Program-made: the position numbers and the translations under genes
Assembly: GCA_945860265.1 (NCBI GenBank)
Contig: CAMAQF010000005.1
Span: 20,320-84,319, forward strand
Length of the DNA: 64,000 bases
Direction of reading: 5' to 3'
Origin: Emticicia agri
GTDB taxonomy: Bacteria; Bacteroidota; Bacteroidia; Cytophagales; Spirosomataceae
Notes under the pieces: model-generated
The model's input: only the letters and a program-made list of their open reading frames with translations
The model's database searches: none
Told to the model about the DNA's origin: nothing
Shown: piece by piece, positions 5,732-47,676 of the stretch
How the letters are laid out: each line of letters begins with the position of its first letter
Position numbering within the stretch: the first letter of the stretch is position 1

Positions 5732-6117
5732 TTACACGAAACATATTAAAACGAATATCGAAGCATTTCGAGGGTCGCCTAAAATACCTGCATATTGCCC
5801 TGCACTGCCTGGAGCAGCCAATAATTGCTCGAAATAGTCTTTATTCGCAAGGTTTCTACTCCAAACAAAAAGTGAAATACCATTTGATGCTCTGAATCCA
5901 ATTCGACCATTTAGCAGCGAATATCCATTAATATTCAAGAATTGAGAAGGTGATGGACTTCATGAAAATTCCGAACGGAAGTACACATCAACAGCAGCAA
6001 AATAATTGCCTTTTAAGCCTAACAAATTTCCTTTGGTTGTTGCTTCTACACCAAACGAACCCGACCATTTTGAAATACCTGATAAACGTCCGCCCGAAAC
6101 ATCGATCTGAATTTAAA
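5732..6117 (-). pseudogene. C-terminal remnant of a TonB-dependent receptor
   Basis: Reverse-strand reading IDVSGGRLSGISKWSGSFGVEATTKGNLLGLKGNYFAAVDVYFRSEFS*SPSPSQFLNINGYSLLNGRIGFRASNGISLFVWSRNLANKDYFEQLLAAPGSAGQYAGILGDPR. Internal TGA, altered C-terminus, no N-terminal portion. Confidence 0.8.
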
Positions 6118-6256
6118 TATTGCCCCAAAATCCAAAAATTGCATTACTAAGAAAATAGTTGTATCAATTTTTAAACACATTCTGAGCAGTCCAATCATTG
6201 TAAAAAAAATATACCAAAGAATTTTTATCTTTACCGCACCAAAATTGCCAAAACCA

Positions 6257-6625
6257 ATGCCAATCAAAGATTTATTAAAACCCGAAAAAACGTTTCGAAT
6301 AACAGGAATGCTCAGAATTGAGAGCGAAGACGACCGTTTTCTCGGCCCTGGTAGGCTTGAATTGCTCGAAAGTATTATCGAAACTGGTTCGATTAGTCAA
6401 GCAGCCAAACAAATGGGAATGTCGTACAAAAAAGCTTGGGATTTAGTAAATTCGATAAATCAACATACAATTAAGCCCATTGTCAATACACAAACTGGTG
6501 GTGAAAAAGGTGGCGGAACGATTGTTACCGAGGAAGGAAAACAACTGATTACGGCTTTCAGAAAGCTACACGAAGAGTTTCAGCAGTCGTTTGATGAAAA
6601 AATAAAAATCTTTTTACAATCATAA
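6257..6625 (+). CDS. ModE-like winged-helix transcriptional regulator, DNA-binding domain only
   Basis: FLGPGRLELLESIIETGSISQAAKQMGMSYKKAWDLVNSIN...GGEKGGGTIVTEEGKQLI matches ModE N-terminal wHTH. ORF track opens at TTG 6245; ATG at 6257 preferred. Confidence 0.88.
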   Translation: MPIKDLLKPEKTFRITGMLRIESEDDRFLGPGRLELLESIIETGSISQAAKQMGMSYKKAWDLVNSINQHTIKPIVNTQTGGEKGGGTIVTEEGKQLITAFRKLHEEFQQSFDEKIKIFLQS

Positions 6626-6635
6626 AATTTTGCCC

Positions 6636-6664
6636 GTAAGAACGTCCAAATTGGACGTTCTTAC
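6636..6664. repeat. Palindromic hairpin, copy 1 of a dispersed repeat (whole copy about 6624-6680)
   Basis: GTAAGAACGTCC-AAATT-GGACGTTCTTAC, 12-bp perfect arms between convergent genes. Confidence 0.85.
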
Positions 6665-6695
6665 AAAATTCGTTAGAATTGCCATTATCTGAACA

Positions 6696-7427
6696 CTAGG
6701 TAAAAATCAACTTTAAACAAGCAATGACCAAACCCACTGCTAAAAGTTTTTTTAGCGTCGGTATTTTGAATTTTTGACTACCAAAATAAGACCCAGCCAA
6801 ACCACCGATAATTGTAGCTAAAACCGCCCATTGCATATTTTCGGGGAGACTAATGCCTCCTTTTTGAAGCTGACCGTAAAGACCTGAAAGTGAATTAACA
6901 AAGATAAAAAGTGCTGAAACTGCCGCCGTTTCTTTCAAATTCGCCCACCGCATCAATAGCATCAAAGGGCTTAAAATAATTCCTCCACCAATGCCAATCA
7001 TTCCCGAAAGTAAGCCAATCAAGCCACCCGATAGGATTCCTGCCCAAATTGGAATTGGTCTGTTTTTTTCATTGGTATCAAATTTATAAATTAATCGAAC
7101 AATTGAAAACAAGATACATACGGCAAGAATTTTCTTATAAATAGAATCAGAAAGCGTCATTGTTCCTCCCAAAAATGCCATCGGAATACTGGCCAGAGCA
7201 AATGGTAAGAAGAGTTTTAAACGAAAATGTCCTGCTCGGTAAAATCCAATAAATGAAAATAAAGAAACAGCCAAATTCATGACCAATGCCGATGATTTCA
7301 TCATTGCGGGAGCTACGCCCATAATTGCCATAATGGCCAAATATCCGCTTGCTCCGCCATGCCCGACCGAAGAGTACAAAAAGGCAACTAAGCTCAATAG
7401 CAATAAAAGCAATAATAGTGATGTCAT
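6696..7427 (-). CDS. TauE/SafE family sulfite exporter-like permease
   Basis: SSVGHGGASGYLAIMAIMG, GGLIGLLSGMIGIGGGIILSPLMLLM; multiple TM segments. Confidence 0.93.
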   Translation of the reverse strand: MTSLLLLLLLLSLVAFLYSSVGHGGASGYLAIMAIMGVAPAMMKSSALVMNLAVSLFSFIGFYRAGHFRLKLFLPFALASIPMAFLGGTMTLSDSIYKKILAVCILFSIVRLIYKFDTNEKNRPIPIWAGILSGGLIGLLSGMIGIGGGIILSPLMLLMRWANLKETAAVSALFIFVNSLSGLYGQLQKGGISLPENMQWAVLATIIGGLAGSYFGSQKFKIPTLKKLLAVGLVIACLKLIFT

Positions 7428-7530
7428 AAGATATTTTTAGAATTATATAATCTATCTTTTTGGGGATTTGAGTTTGGTATTTATGCAGATGATTATCTAA
7501 AAACTCATTATTTTTTTCATTAACAATTCA

Positions 7531-7558
7531 TTCGTTATATATTTGCAAATTTAACGAA
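7531..7558. promoter_or_regulatory. Putative ModE operator, box 1
   Basis: TTCGTTATAT-ATTTGCAA-ATTTAACGAA; 10-bp arms with one mismatch, 8-nt spacer; contains TATATTTG (7538-7545), a Bacteroidota -7-like element. Confidence 0.65.
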
Positions 7559-7592
7559 CTGTTTTCGTAAAATCCTTAAAAAATCACCAATA

Positions 7593-10169
7593 ATGCCAAA
7601 AAAAATACTTTTTTATGCCTATCGTTATATTTTATTATATATAACGATTTTTGAAACAGTATTTCCACAAATAAGCCAAGCTCAGGAAGCTGATACACTA
7701 AAATCACAAATCTTGAATGAAGTTGTAATTTCAGCTTCAAGGGTCAAAGAAAATTCTCTTAAATCGGCAACAAGTATTGAATTGTTGACATTGAAACAAA
7801 TGCAGCAAAGTGCAGCATTGAGTTATTTTGATGCCATCGAAAACCTAAAAGGGGTGCAATTGATAAGCCCTAGTTTGGGTTTTAGAGTCTATAATGCACG
7901 TGGGTTTACGAACACAACCAATGTGCGATTTATACAACTCGTTGATGGGATTGACAACCAAGCCCCACACATAGGCTCTCCGATTGCTTCGGGAATGGGG
8001 CCAACTGACCTTGATATTCGCCAAGTTGAGATGATTCCAGGAGTTGCTTCGGCACTATACGGGATGAATTCTTTGAATGGCTTGGTAAATTTACAAACAC
8101 TCAATCCATTTGAATCGGAAGGTTTTAGAATTCAACAAAAAACTGGGGTCAACCACTTAACGAATCCAAGTATCAACCTTAAAATATTTTCTGAAACGAA
8201 CTTACGATATGCCAAGAAACTCAGCGAAAAGTGGGCGTTTAAAATCAACTTTGGGTATCAGAAAGGTTATGATTGGATTGCCAACTCAACGCTTGACCTT
8301 AATCCCACGGTCAATACTTCGATGAATTTACTCGGTAAAGATAATGTCGGAGCCGACTATGTAAATTCTTACGGAAATGAATCATCGAATCGAAGAACAC
8401 TGACGCTCGTTGGAAAAAGATATGTAGTTGCTCGAACTGGCTATTTTGAAGAAGAAGTAACCGACTATTCTATCAATAATCTCAAAGCTGATTTTTCTTT
8501 AAACTATCGCTTCAAAACTCAACATGAACTTGCTTATAGTTTCAAAATCGCTCAGCTTGATAATGTTTATCAACGCACTAATCGTTTTCGCCTGAATGAT
8601 TATCGTTTATCTCAAAATGCGATTACTTATCAGAGTCCAAGCACACAAATTAGAGCTTATTTGACAAGCGAAAATACAGGAAAGTCTTATAATATTCGTT
8701 CGATGGCCGAAAATATCGATCGTAGTTTCAAGTCGGATAATGTTTGGTTTACTGATTTTACAAACGAATATAATATTCAAACCAAAGCTGGTAAAAGCGT
8801 GATTGATGCCCTAAATTTGGCCAGAACGCAAGCGGATAAAGGTCGCCCACAGCCAAATACGCCAACTTTTGATGACTTGATTACAAAATTAGGTGACATC
8901 AATAATTGGGATATTGGGGCGGCTCTGCGAGTGCAATCTTACATGTTTCACACCGAAGGCTTAACTGATTTGAGTAAAAAGCTTTCAACCACACTTCAAA
9001 AGACAGGTTTTGGTTTATTGGCTGGTTTCGATTATCGAAATTATATCGTTGTTCCTGATGGAAATTATTTCATCAATCCAAAAGAGAGCGGCAAAAATAT
9101 CAATTATTGGAAAGCGGGTGGTTTTGTGCAAGGAAGTAAAACTTTTTTCGATGAAAAACTCAAATTTTTACTAGCGCTTAGAGCTGACAAAAACCAATAT
9201 TTCGATATACGTTTTAATCCACGAGCGTCTTTAGTTTATTCACACAACGAAAACAATCATTTCCGACTTTCTTATCAAAATGGCTATCGTTTTCCGAGTT
9301 TGTTTGAGTCCTTTTCAAACATAAATAGTGGTGGAGTAAAGCGTGTGGGTGGCTTGCCGATAATGTCGCAAGGTATTTTTGAGAATTCGTATTTACGAAA
9401 AACCATTGATGATTTCACAGCGGCAGTGAACCAAGCTATAAATATCAATAAACTCACTCAAAATGAGGCCATCATAAAAAACAAAAATCTTCTCCGCAAA
9501 AACGATTATACTTATCTGAAACCAGAGTATGTTAATAGTTTTGAAATTGGCTACAGAGGTTCTCCTGTGGGCAAAAAACTATTTGTCGATGCTGATTTCT
9601 ACTATAATGTTTACCGAAACTTCATGGCTCAAATTGAGGCCAATGTACCGCTTGGTACGAATGCCGATTCGCTGGCATTTTACATGTATGACCGCAATAA
9701 ACAAGCTCGCTATCGTCTGTGGACAAACTCAAAAACTATCGTGAAAAACTACGGTGCGAGTATCGGATTAAACTATAATTTCTATAAAAACTTCTCACTA
9801 AACGTGAATACGTCTTTTTCAAAACTACAAAACACTGCCAATAATGATGGTTTTGAAGAAGCATTCAATACCCCACGTTGGATTATGAATATCGGTCTCG
9901 GCAATGAAAACTTACAAAAAATATTGGTTTTGGCATAAACTATAAATATCAAGAAGGATTTCTGTGGCAGTCGGCACTGGCAACTGGCAATGTACCAGCT
10001 ATTCATAATGTTGATTGCACAGTTTACGTATTATGCCAGAAAACAAGGTTTACAATTTAAAGTTGCAGGAACAAATATTTTGAATCGGCCTTATATAAGT
10101 TTCGTTGCAGGGCCAACGGTCGGAACATTTTATTATTTGACGATTACGGCAGATTTGGGGAAGAAATGA
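7593..10169 (+). CDS. TonB-dependent receptor (ORF broken by two compensating frameshifts)
   Basis: Signal peptide, plug domain (LNEVVISASRVKEN...IRQVEMIPGVASALYGMNSLNGLVNLQT). The tracked ORF ends at TAA 9936-9938, but the reading continues KNIGFGINYKYQEGFLWQSALATGNVPAIHNVD / AQFTYYARKQGLQFKVAGTNILNRPYISFVAGPTVGTFYYLTITADLGKK*, returning to the original frame. Confidence 0.85.
7621..7648. promoter_or_regulatory. Putative ModE operator, box 2 (inside the 5' end of the receptor ORF)
   Basis: ATCGTTATAT-TTTATTAT-ATATAACGAT; perfect 10-bp arms, 8-nt spacer, offset exactly 90 bp from box 1. Confidence 0.68.
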
Positions 10170-43806: not shown

Positions 43807-46089
43807 TTATACAGCTTTTATTGTAATCACTACTGACTTTGAAGTTGGCGTTTTACTAATATCGGCAAAGCTATCAATCGGCACTAAAACATTGGCTTCA
43901 GGAAAGTAAGTGGCTACACATTTTCGAGGAATATTATAAGGTACGACGATGAATTTTTGGGCTAATCGTTCGATTCCTCCATGACGATTATAAAGATTTA
44001 CTACTTGGTATTTTTCTAATTTTGCTTCCGCCATATCCGATTCATTCATCATAATAATTCTTCGCTCATTATAAATACCACGGTAACGGTCATCTAAGCC
44101 ATAAATTGTTGTGTTAAACTGGTCATGACTACGAATAGTCATCATAATATATTCATTATAAAGTAATTGAATCGTTTCCAATTTATTGATTGAAAACTTT
44201 GCTTTTGCCGAATCTGTACCAAATTTTCGTTCACGCGGGAGGTTTGGCAAATAAAAACCACCATCTTGACGCACTCGGACATTATAATTATCAAAACCTA
44301 CGATGGTCTTTTCAATCAAATCTCTAATATTATCATAATTCGCCACAAGTTTATCCCAGTCGAGACTTTTATTTACTAAAGTAGCTTTTGCCATTCCTGC
44401 AACAATAGCTGATTCTGACAAAAGATGCTCTGAAATTGGCTCTAAAACTCCTTTACTACTATGCACGACTCCCATCGAATTTTCAACGGTCACAAACTGC
44501 TCGCCATCGGTTTGCAAATCAAGGTCAGTTCTACCCAAAGTTGGTAGAATTAAGGCCGTTTTACCATGAATTAAATGACTACGATTGAGTTTTGTAGAAA
44601 TTTGAACAGTTAAATCACAATTTTGTAGAGCCTTAGCCGTAAACTCAGTATCGGGCGTAGCAGAAAGGAAATTCCCACCCATTGCTATAAAAACTTTTGC
44701 TTTGCCTTCTGACATCGCCTTTATAGATGCTACTGTATCAAAACCATGTTTCCGTGGAGGGTCAAAACCGAAGACTTTTTGCAGATTATCAAGTAAAACT
44801 TTTGGAGGTTTTTCGTAAATACCCATCGTGCGGTCGCCCTGAACATTTGAATGTCCACGCACAGGGCAAGTGCCTCCTCCTTCAATACCGATACTTCCTT
44901 TTAGTAAAAGTAAGTTGACTACTTCACGAATCGTAACGACTGAGTTTTTATGTTGGGTAAGGCCCATAGCCCAACAAACAATGATTTTTTTATGGTCAAT
45001 GAGTAGTTGAGTTGCAGCCTTAATTTCATCTAAGGCTATTCCACAAGCTTCTGAAAGTTGGTCTAAATCTTCACTTTCGAGGCTTTGTATATAACTTTCA
45101 TAATTTTCTGATTGATTTATAATAAAATCTTTATCAAATACATTTCCTAATTTTTTTTCGGCTTCAAGCAAGAGTTTATTCATTGCTTTGAGCAAAGCCA
45201 AATCACCATTGATTCTGATTTGCAAGTAAATATCTGTCAGTTTTTCTCCTCCGAAAAACATATCTCGTACTTCTTGTGGATGTTTAAATTTCAATAAACC
45301 TGCTTCAATTAACGGATTAATTGAAAAAATCTTTGCACCTGCACGTTTGGCTTTTTCGAGAGCCGAAAGCATTCTAGGGTGGTTTGTGCCAGGATTTTGC
45401 CCCAAAATCATTATAACTTCTGCTTTCTCAAAATCATCCAATTTCACCGAACCTTTACCCAAACCCAAAGTTTCTACCAAAGCCGAACCGCTTGATTCAT
45501 GGCACATATTAGAGCAATCAGGCATATTATTTGTGCCATACATTCGAATAAAAAGTTGGTATAAAAATGCCGCTTCGTTGCTCGTTCTGCCCGAAGTGTA
45601 GAAAATTGCTTCATCGGGTGAAGGCAAACTATTCAACTGATTACCAATAAGTTTAAAAGATTCTTCCCAAGAAACTTCCTGGTAATGTGTTTGTCCTTCT
45701 CTCAAAACCAATGGCTGCGTCAAACGCCCCTGCTGACCTAGCCAATAATCAGATTTTTGAGAAAGTTCGGTTACCGAATATTTTTGAAAAAAAACAGGTG
45801 TCACCTTTCGAGTAGTTGCTTCTTCGACTATGGCTTTTGCACCATTTTCGCAATATTCAGCAATTTTCGAGCGTTCGCCGTCAGGGTCTGGCCACGCACA
45901 ACTTGGACAATCAACACCCCCTTTTTGGTTGAGATTCAATAAAGATTTTAAACCTCTCCTGATTGGCATTGCACCAAAAACGTGCTTCATTGATGAAAAC
46001 ACTGCCGTGAAACCAGCGGCTTCGGTAGCAGGTTTTGAAGTTTCGATTCCTGTAAAATCGGTTGGTGCTTGGGGGTTTATTTTTGGCAT
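43807..46089 (-). CDS. FdhF/YdeP family molybdopterin oxidoreductase
   Basis: CPSCAWPDPDGERSKIAEYCENGAKAI; FYTSGRTSNEAAFLYQLF; NMCHESSGSALVETLG; GTCPVRGHSNVQGDRTMGI; RSHDQFNTTIYGLDDRYRG. Confidence 0.95.
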   Translation of the reverse strand: MPKINPQAPTDFTGIETSKPATEAAGFTAVFSSMKHVFGAMPIRRGLKSLLNLNQKGGVDCPSCAWPDPDGERSKIAEYCENGAKAIVEEATTRKVTPVFFQKYSVTELSQKSDYWLGQQGRLTQPLVLREGQTHYQEVSWEESFKLIGNQLNSLPSPDEAIFYTSGRTSNEAAFLYQLFIRMYGTNNMPDCSNMCHESSGSALVETLGLGKGSVKLDDFEKAEVIMILGQNPGTNHPRMLSALEKAKRAGAKIFSINPLIEAGLLKFKHPQEVRDMFFGGEKLTDIYLQIRINGDLALLKAMNKLLLEAEKKLGNVFDKDFIINQSENYESYIQSLESEDLDQLSEACGIALDEIKAATQLLIDHKKIIVCWAMGLTQHKNSVVTIREVVNLLLLKGSIGIEGGGTCPVRGHSNVQGDRTMGIYEKPPKVLLDNLQKVFGFDPPRKHGFDTVASIKAMSEGKAKVFIAMGGNFLSATPDTEFTAKALQNCDLTVQISTKLNRSHLIHGKTALILPTLGRTDLDLQTDGEQFVTVENSMGVVHSSKGVLEPISEHLLSESAIVAGMAKATLVNKSLDWDKLVANYDNIRDLIEKTIVGFDNYNVRVRQDGGFYLPNLPRERKFGTDSAKAKFSINKLETIQLLYNEYIMMTIRSHDQFNTTIYGLDDRYRGIYNERRIIMMNESDMAEAKLEKYQVVNLYNRHGGIERLAQKFIVVPYNIPRKCVATYFPEANVLVPIDSFADISKTPTSKSVVITIKAV

Positions 46090-46842: not shown

Positions 46843-47676
46843 TCAAAAAATTCTATCGGTGTGCGTATATACATTAAAGCTCTCTTCTCGAAGAAATCCT
46901 ATCAAAGTAATACCCAAAACTTGGGCAGTCTCAATGGCCAAACTCGAAGGCGAGCCTACACAAGCCATAATCGGAATACCAGCCATTGCGGCCTTTTGAA
47001 TCAGTTCAAAACTCGCTCTACTACTCATTATCAACACAAAGTCTGTCAAGGGTAAAAGTTTTTGTTGTAGAGCAGCACCGATTACTTTATCAAGAGCGTT
47101 GTGGCGACCGATGTCTTCTCTCAAAAAACATTTTTCTACCTTATTTAGAATCATTGCAGCATGAAGCCCACCGGTATGTTTGAAAAAAACTTGATTATTC
47201 GCTAAAACTTCAGGTAAAGTTTTTATAAACTCTCCTGAAACTTTGAAACCAGTTTTTGGTAAAATTATGCATTTTTTTTCGATAGCTTCGAGTGAGGCCT
47301 TCCCACATATTCCACAACTTGAGGTGGAATAAAAATGACGTTCGAGGCTTTGTAAATTTACTTCAATTTGGGGTTTTAGCTCAACTCTTACGATATTTTC
47401 TTCAGCTTGCCGGCCAGTATCTTTGCAATAATGAATGGATAAGACATCATCAAACGAAGAAATAATTCCTTCAGTAAACAAAAAACCTAAAGCCAATTCA
47501 AAATCATGGCCTGTTGGTGTTCGCATAGTTACGGAAATACTTTTTTGCTTTCGGCTGTCTTCTACTTCAAAACCTAAACGAATCTCCAAAGGCTCTTCAA
47601 TTACCACCAAATCGGCAATTTCTTCGATACCTTTTGGCTTGAATTTCTTTATTTCAAAAGATTTTATTCCGTACAT
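46843..47676 (-). CDS. fdhD: Formate dehydrogenase accessory sulfurtransferase FdhD
   Basis: TSSCGICGKASLEAI (CxxC), FKHTGGLHAAMI, REDIGRHNALDKVIGAAL, SSRASFELIQKAAMAGIPIMACVGSPSSLAIETA. Confidence 0.96.
   Translation of the reverse strand: MYGIKSFEIKKFKPKGIEEIADLVVIEEPLEIRLGFEVEDSRKQKSISVTMRTPTGHDFELALGFLFTEGIISSFDDVLSIHYCKDTGRQAEENIVRVELKPQIEVNLQSLERHFYSTSSCGICGKASLEAIEKKCIILPKTGFKVSGEFIKTLPEVLANNQVFFKHTGGLHAAMILNKVEKCFLREDIGRHNALDKVIGAALQQKLLPLTDFVLIMSSRASFELIQKAAMAGIPIMACVGSPSSLAIETAQVLGITLIGFLREESFNVYTHTDRIF

Follow-up and report, generated by a model that had tools for sequence, protein, structure and literature searches.

In the genome of a freshwater Emticicia bacterium, the gene for a ModE-type DNA-binding protein shares a locus with those for a TauE/SafE (TSUP) permease and for a TonB receptor. 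We analyzed this locus within a stretch of 64,000 nucleotides (the window), which is part of a 4.43 Mb draft assembly with a completeness of about 90%. Named public relatives whose receptors are 78-94% identical to the one found here are Emticicia or Cytophagaceae MAGs, and the window can thus be assigned to the genus Emticicia. A preliminary description had reported a ModE-type winged-helix gene next to a TauE/SafE permease that is divergent from a TonB-dependent receptor, two inverted repeats in the receptor 5' region, and an FdhF-like enzyme together with FdhD elsewhere in the window. All of these genes were recovered where they had been placed, and family matches supported the FdhF-like and FdhD assignments (Table 1). 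The two repeats were also confirmed, with the amendment that box 2 falls within the coding part of the receptor gene. The FdhF-like enzyme is likely a consumer of Mo, and the FdhD/NarQ protein likely acts in Mo enzyme maturation, as inferred from sequence alone; both are encoded outside the uptake locus proper. A moaA gene was found in the source genome.

Table 1. Positions of the genes, gene remnants and boxes in the window
Feature	Position	Strand	Remarks
Gene remnant beside modE	5768-6103	-	
Gene remnant beside modE	6109-6207	-	
ModE-type wHTH ORF	6245-6625, ATG at 6257	+	122 aa; PF00126
TauE/SafE (TSUP) permease	6696-7427	-	243 aa; PF01925 at residues 8-240, E 1.2e-32
Box 1, CGTTATAT-ATTTGCAA-ATTTAACG	7533-7556		1 mismatch; TauE-receptor divergent region
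TonB-dependent receptor	7593-10169 (ORF open to 9938)	+	plug and beta-barrel domains, PF07715 + PF00593
Box 2, CGTTATAT-TTTATTAT-ATATAACG	7623-7646		0 mismatches; receptor signal-peptide codons
FdhF-like molybdopterin oxidoreductase	43807-46089	-	PF00384 + PF01568
FdhD/NarQ family protein	46843-47676	-	PF02634

The receptor end at 10169, as given in the preliminary description, held only in part. The frame is lost shortly before the stop of the open reading frame, and the original frame then resumes and runs to that position. In the congeners examined the receptor gene is intact, with about 858 codons; a full-length frame is missing in this contig. Loss and regain of the frame at about 9900-10169 could reflect an assembly error in the draft genome or real decay. 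On the other side of the locus, one of the two remnants adjoining modE is 94% identical to a C-terminal portion of another, second TonB receptor (L042:5434-8001, minus strand), and the other is a fragment resembling a 169-aa protein to which no function is assigned. A congener has both of the corresponding genes. The 169-aa protein, which lies beside ModE in the congener, was considered as a molybdopterin-fold protein and rejected, as it had no family match and no similarity to PF00174 proteins.

The regulator has the N-terminal winged-helix DNA-binding domain of ModE proteins. It matched TIGR00637 with an E-value of 1.7e-26 and 92.2 bits, slightly below the cut-off of 98.5 bits, and it aligned over residues 19-113 to the DNA-binding domain of ModE from E. 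coli (PDB 1b9m). Profile searches revealed no C-terminal Mop (molybdate-binding) domains in the protein. A hidden Mop sensor was also searched for across the source genome, without any match, and Mop matches were obtained in just 2 of the 59 genomes searched. We conclude that the regulator is likely ModE-like at the DNA level, yet falls short of full membership in the E. coli type of ModE; binding data do not exist. Sensing of Mo by this Mop-less protein can only be inferred, again from sequence alone, and its mode is unexplained.

The start of the receptor gene carries two boxes of the form CGTTATAT-N8-ATATAACG. Box 2 is perfect and covers about codons 11-18 of the receptor ORF, while the single mismatch of box 1 sits in the right arm. 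Throughout the assembly these are the sole sites with 0 or 1 mismatch; sites with exactly two mismatches are absent, and 24 sites have three. Shuffling of the window alone revealed that the pair is mildly unusual at most, with 2 hits at ≤3 mismatches where 0.48 are expected, a number that is reached in 9 of 100 shuffles for 2 hits. The E. coli modA operator given in the preliminary description proved correct: CGTTATATTGTCGCCTACATAACG is located a few bases upstream of modA in K-12 (NC_000913.3), has one mismatch to the pattern, and agrees in arms and 8-base spacer. A ModE protein reduced to DNA binding but paired with an E. coli-type operator poses the question of how Mo can be sensed without Mop domains.

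The sequence TAnnTTTG is the consensus of the -7 element in Bacteroidota promoters. As read from the window sequence, box 1 overlaps this motif on both strands, and the motif is present in 28 of 44 distinct boxes, compared to 2.4 ± 1.5 expected from spacer shuffling. Since box 1 carries a -7-like element on both strands, we would expect a bound regulator to block the two divergent genes. Such promoter blocking is a possibility that we infer, as no transcription start is known, and the TTTG signal might in part be extended operator sequence.

The preliminary description had suggested to look for conservation of the boxes upstream of orthologous receptors and modABC, and for their co-occurrence with the regulator. 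Our survey covered 40 regions around ModE homologues, most of them spanning about 20 kb, in which ModE, box and receptor or TauE recur together. For a systematic analysis, the best match to the E. coli-derived pattern was determined between 350 bases upstream and 75 bases inside each gene. A box with ≤2 mismatches was found at 37 of 44 receptor orthologues, but at 0 of 20 receptor paralogues and in 0 of 1320 shuffled or resampled sequences. The seven orthologues without a box comprise two from ModE-less members of genus g3, three second copies and two Flavobacterium genes, where ModE is more distant. The 8-base spacer was the sole spacer that yielded the receptor box signal. Among 119 relatives, 42 genomes contain a box with ≤1 mismatch, and ModE is encoded in 40 of them; in the two remaining genomes the site lies inside coding sequence. 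In a comparison of seven species of Emticicia, each of the two boxes has 14 identical columns among the 16 columns of its arms; identical background columns number 12 of 60 upstream, 21 of 66 in the stretch that separates the boxes, and 6 of 36 downstream. The co-occurrence check was hence positive, and conservation was confirmed for the receptors and, for modA, in some relatives only. Fisher and other P values in this work ignore kinship among the genomes and therefore overstate independence.

In some relatives that keep modABC, a box is found directly before modA in G039, G053, G064 and G067, and in G058 it heads a PF00174-MbnH-modABC operon. A box immediately before the gene is missing from most of the remaining modA genes tested, and from about half of the modA genes in ModE-bearing genomes. 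The box also precedes small secreted PF00174-fold proteins and MbnH/MauG-like di-haem enzymes. Because it stands before modA and before molybdopterin-fold and di-haem genes, the box is tied to molybdenum independently of the receptor. An operator-type box before the receptor, TauE and some modA genes is what a ModE operator should show, bearing in mind that binding data are lacking.

Several neighbours of the boxes deserve mention on their own. The secreted proteins of about 160-200 aa with the PF00174 fold of molybdopterin oxidoreductases (L163, L164, L202, L204, L211, L216, L244 and L139) recur beside ModE boxes, TauE/moaA or the receptor. Their aligned domain contains no conserved cysteine by eye and, for this reason, they may be no ordinary enzymes. 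MbnH/MauG-like di-haem enzymes adjoin PF00174 proteins under ModE boxes at L160, L162, L202, L211 and L216, and one such gene sits at the head of a modABC operon. In genus g21 (L210, L211, L213) the box is found beside an MFS transporter of the oxalate/formate-like type, and L210 and L213 have a different TonB receptor beside the box as well. Possibly these are further uptake genes with ModE boxes.

We obtained no modA match in the source genome (G000) or in the other 11 Emticicia genomes, 12 genomes being searched in total. The source genome is incomplete, as stated above, and all congeners agree on the absence. Among the 119 relatives, a TauE orthologue is present in 55 and modA in 32, with both in a single genome (Fisher 1e-9, not corrected for kinship). 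Within the family, with TauE counted at ≥45% identity, 44 genomes have TauE only, 21 have modA only and 1 has both, and in genera g5, g20 and g21 the two genes are alternative states within the genus. A convincing MOT1 was detected solely in five genomes (G075, G083, G094, G100 and G115), all of which are without TauE and modA. MOT1 was also considered as the inner-membrane carrier of Emticicia and rejected, as only weak SulP-like matches are present.

TauE is repeatedly found in the context of molybdenum cofactor (Moco) genes. Outside the family, in other Bacteroidia, 24 of 26 TauE loci lie beside moeA, moeB, mobA, moaA or moaE, and a ModE-type gene is also present in six of these 24; in G031, G043 and G056, which are members of the order, moaA adjoins TauE or lies near it. 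A box at TauE (≤3 mismatches) was found in 20 of 30 ModE-bearing genomes, but in 0 of 14 genomes without ModE. The genus without modA, the near-exclusivity of TauE and modA, and the placement of TauE among Moco biosynthesis genes go beyond the preliminary description; they are shown for the genomes searched. Linkage to Moco genes and replacement of known importers are both expected of a molybdate importer, and TauE fulfills both, transport itself being inferred. Based on the near-exclusive distribution with modA and the Moco-gene context, TauE is likely the inner-membrane molybdate importer, with the receptor as its outer-membrane partner. A PDB search gave no hint of the TauE substrate. Since the TauE-family protein TK06_RS10770 imports sulfate (PMC11535334), a tetrahedral oxyanion is a plausible import substrate in the TSUP family. 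No TSUP molybdate transporter was found in the literature searched, which excludes most subscription papers and regulon databases. In a survey of 3683 Mo-using bacteria, 278 were without a known Mo transporter (PMC6147048), and the TSUP clade is a concrete, testable candidate for part of this gap.

The receptor orthologue (about 47% identity and above) tracks ModE in 36 of 39 cases. It adjoins ModE in several families, even in Flavobacterium, where a PF00174 protein comes next after it, and in L269 it adjoins moaA. Family searches revealed no feature of the receptor sequence that names a substrate; the best matches score low and are to receptors for siderophores, haem and B12, and a PDB search returned generic plug matches only. 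Since porins could let free molybdate through, we regard a chelated form of Mo or W as no less probable a substrate than the free anion. Molybdate import by the receptor is an inference without experimental support. To our knowledge, no outer-membrane receptor for molybdenum has been established, and a molybdate TonB receptor was not found in the literature searched (with the same exclusions as for the TSUP transporter). Now that a receptor is placed under a conserved ModE box, the question of such a receptor becomes directly testable.

On balance, we lean toward the view that the locus mediates ModE-box-controlled uptake of molybdate (or tungstate, or a Mo-chelate) in an organism without ModABC; TupABC and WtpABC were outside the search. 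The receptor would carry the Mo species over the outer membrane, driven by TonB, and the TSUP permease, standing in for ModABC, would take molybdate over the inner membrane. The boxes would be bound by the small ModE-type protein. At sufficient Mo, binding to box 1 would shut off both divergent genes, and box 2 inside the receptor gene may act as a second operator or as a roadblock. The genes, the boxes, their conservation and co-occurrence, the near-exclusivity with modA and the occurrence of TauE in Moco operons are shown by computation. The import of molybdate, tungstate or a chelate under ModE control, as proposed in the preliminary description, is hence supported comparatively, with import, binding and repression inferred. 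That proposal needs to be amended: the regulator lacks a Mop domain, with no separate Mop protein detected, and TauE is likely part of the uptake route itself, a TSUP permease replacing ModABC.

A bolder reading is a complete ABC-free molybdate route, in which a TonB receptor and a TSUP permease are both controlled by a sensor-less ModE acting on boxes of the E. coli type; here we see no clear balance for or against. If this is true, part of the transporter that is missing from Mo-using bacteria without a known one would be found in the TSUP clade. Against our model stand the missing Mop sensor, a receptor whose substrate is not named by its sequence, and the disrupted receptor frame in this contig. 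A SulP carrier in the source genome, with a weak PF16983 match, could also move molybdate unspecifically. DNA binding, repression, substrate, Mo sensing by a sensor-less protein and transport remain inferences for which there are no binding, expression or uptake data.

Several alternative explanations have to be considered. TauE might move a sulfur compound (sulfite, sulfate or another) for Moco dithiolene synthesis or for a sulfite-oxidising molybdoenzyme, while molybdate enters by an unspecific carrier. Characterised TSUP proteins indeed handle sulfur compounds (PMC5840216, PMC11535334), Moco synthesis needs sulfur, and PF00174 sulfite-oxidase-fold proteins occur in the same regulon. However, this explanation predicts neither the near-exclusivity with modA, nor the absence of TauE where MOT1 is present, nor the ModE box on TauE, and we consider it unlikely. 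It also seems improbable that the receptor imports a substrate other than Mo or W, such as an iron siderophore, a pterin or another cofactor, and is merely coordinated with Mo status. The generic receptor family with its low-scoring siderophore, haem and B12 matches, and the possible passage of free molybdate through porins unaided, speak for this idea. Against it, the receptor shares its box with TauE and with modA in relatives, and its gene neighbours ModE in several families and moaA in one.

It is harder to dismiss that the regulon responds to something else, for example to Moco itself or to a partner protein, although we consider this less likely than not. The ModE-like protein would then be no molybdate repressor, in line with its sole DNA-binding domain, the failure to find Mop, and the equally unknown sensing in single-domain ModE proteins of Desulfovibrio (PMC545781). 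Yet an E. coli-type operator and Mo-related targets speak against this view. That the boxes are chance AT-rich palindromes is all but excluded. The window shuffles alone would allow it, as 9 of 100 contain two hits at ≤3 mismatches, but the genome-wide counts, with both sites of ≤1 mismatch at the receptor, the spacer specificity, the conservation across families and the conserved arm footprint rule it out.

Compared to known systems, our favored model of ModE-box-controlled Mo uptake shares with E. coli ModE/modABC a homologous DNA-binding domain, the same operator arms and 8-base spacer, and Mo-uptake targets in relatives. It differs in that the Emticicia regulator is without Mop, its main targets are a TonB receptor and a TSUP permease, and the genome is without modA. 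The single-domain ModE of Desulfovibrio likewise has a DNA-binding domain without Mop and an unknown mode of sensing, but it uses the operator CGGTCACG-N14-CGTGACCG and targets modABC (PMC545781), whereas the Emticicia operator is of the E. coli type. Metal-regulated TonB receptors exist for iron, nickel and zinc. Here, too, receptor expression is predicted to be tied to metal status by a metal-type regulator, but the predicted metal is Mo or W, for which no such receptor was found in the literature searched. TauE is proposed to act at the same step as MOT1 and ModABC, inner-membrane molybdate import, but these belong to unrelated protein families and show a near-exclusive distribution with it. 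Finally, TSUP permeases including TK06_RS10770 share the Pfam family of TauE, and import of a tetrahedral oxyanion is documented for this family member (PMC11535334); in contrast, the predicted substrate of the Emticicia TauE is molybdate, and Moco operons and ModE boxes are associated with this permease.
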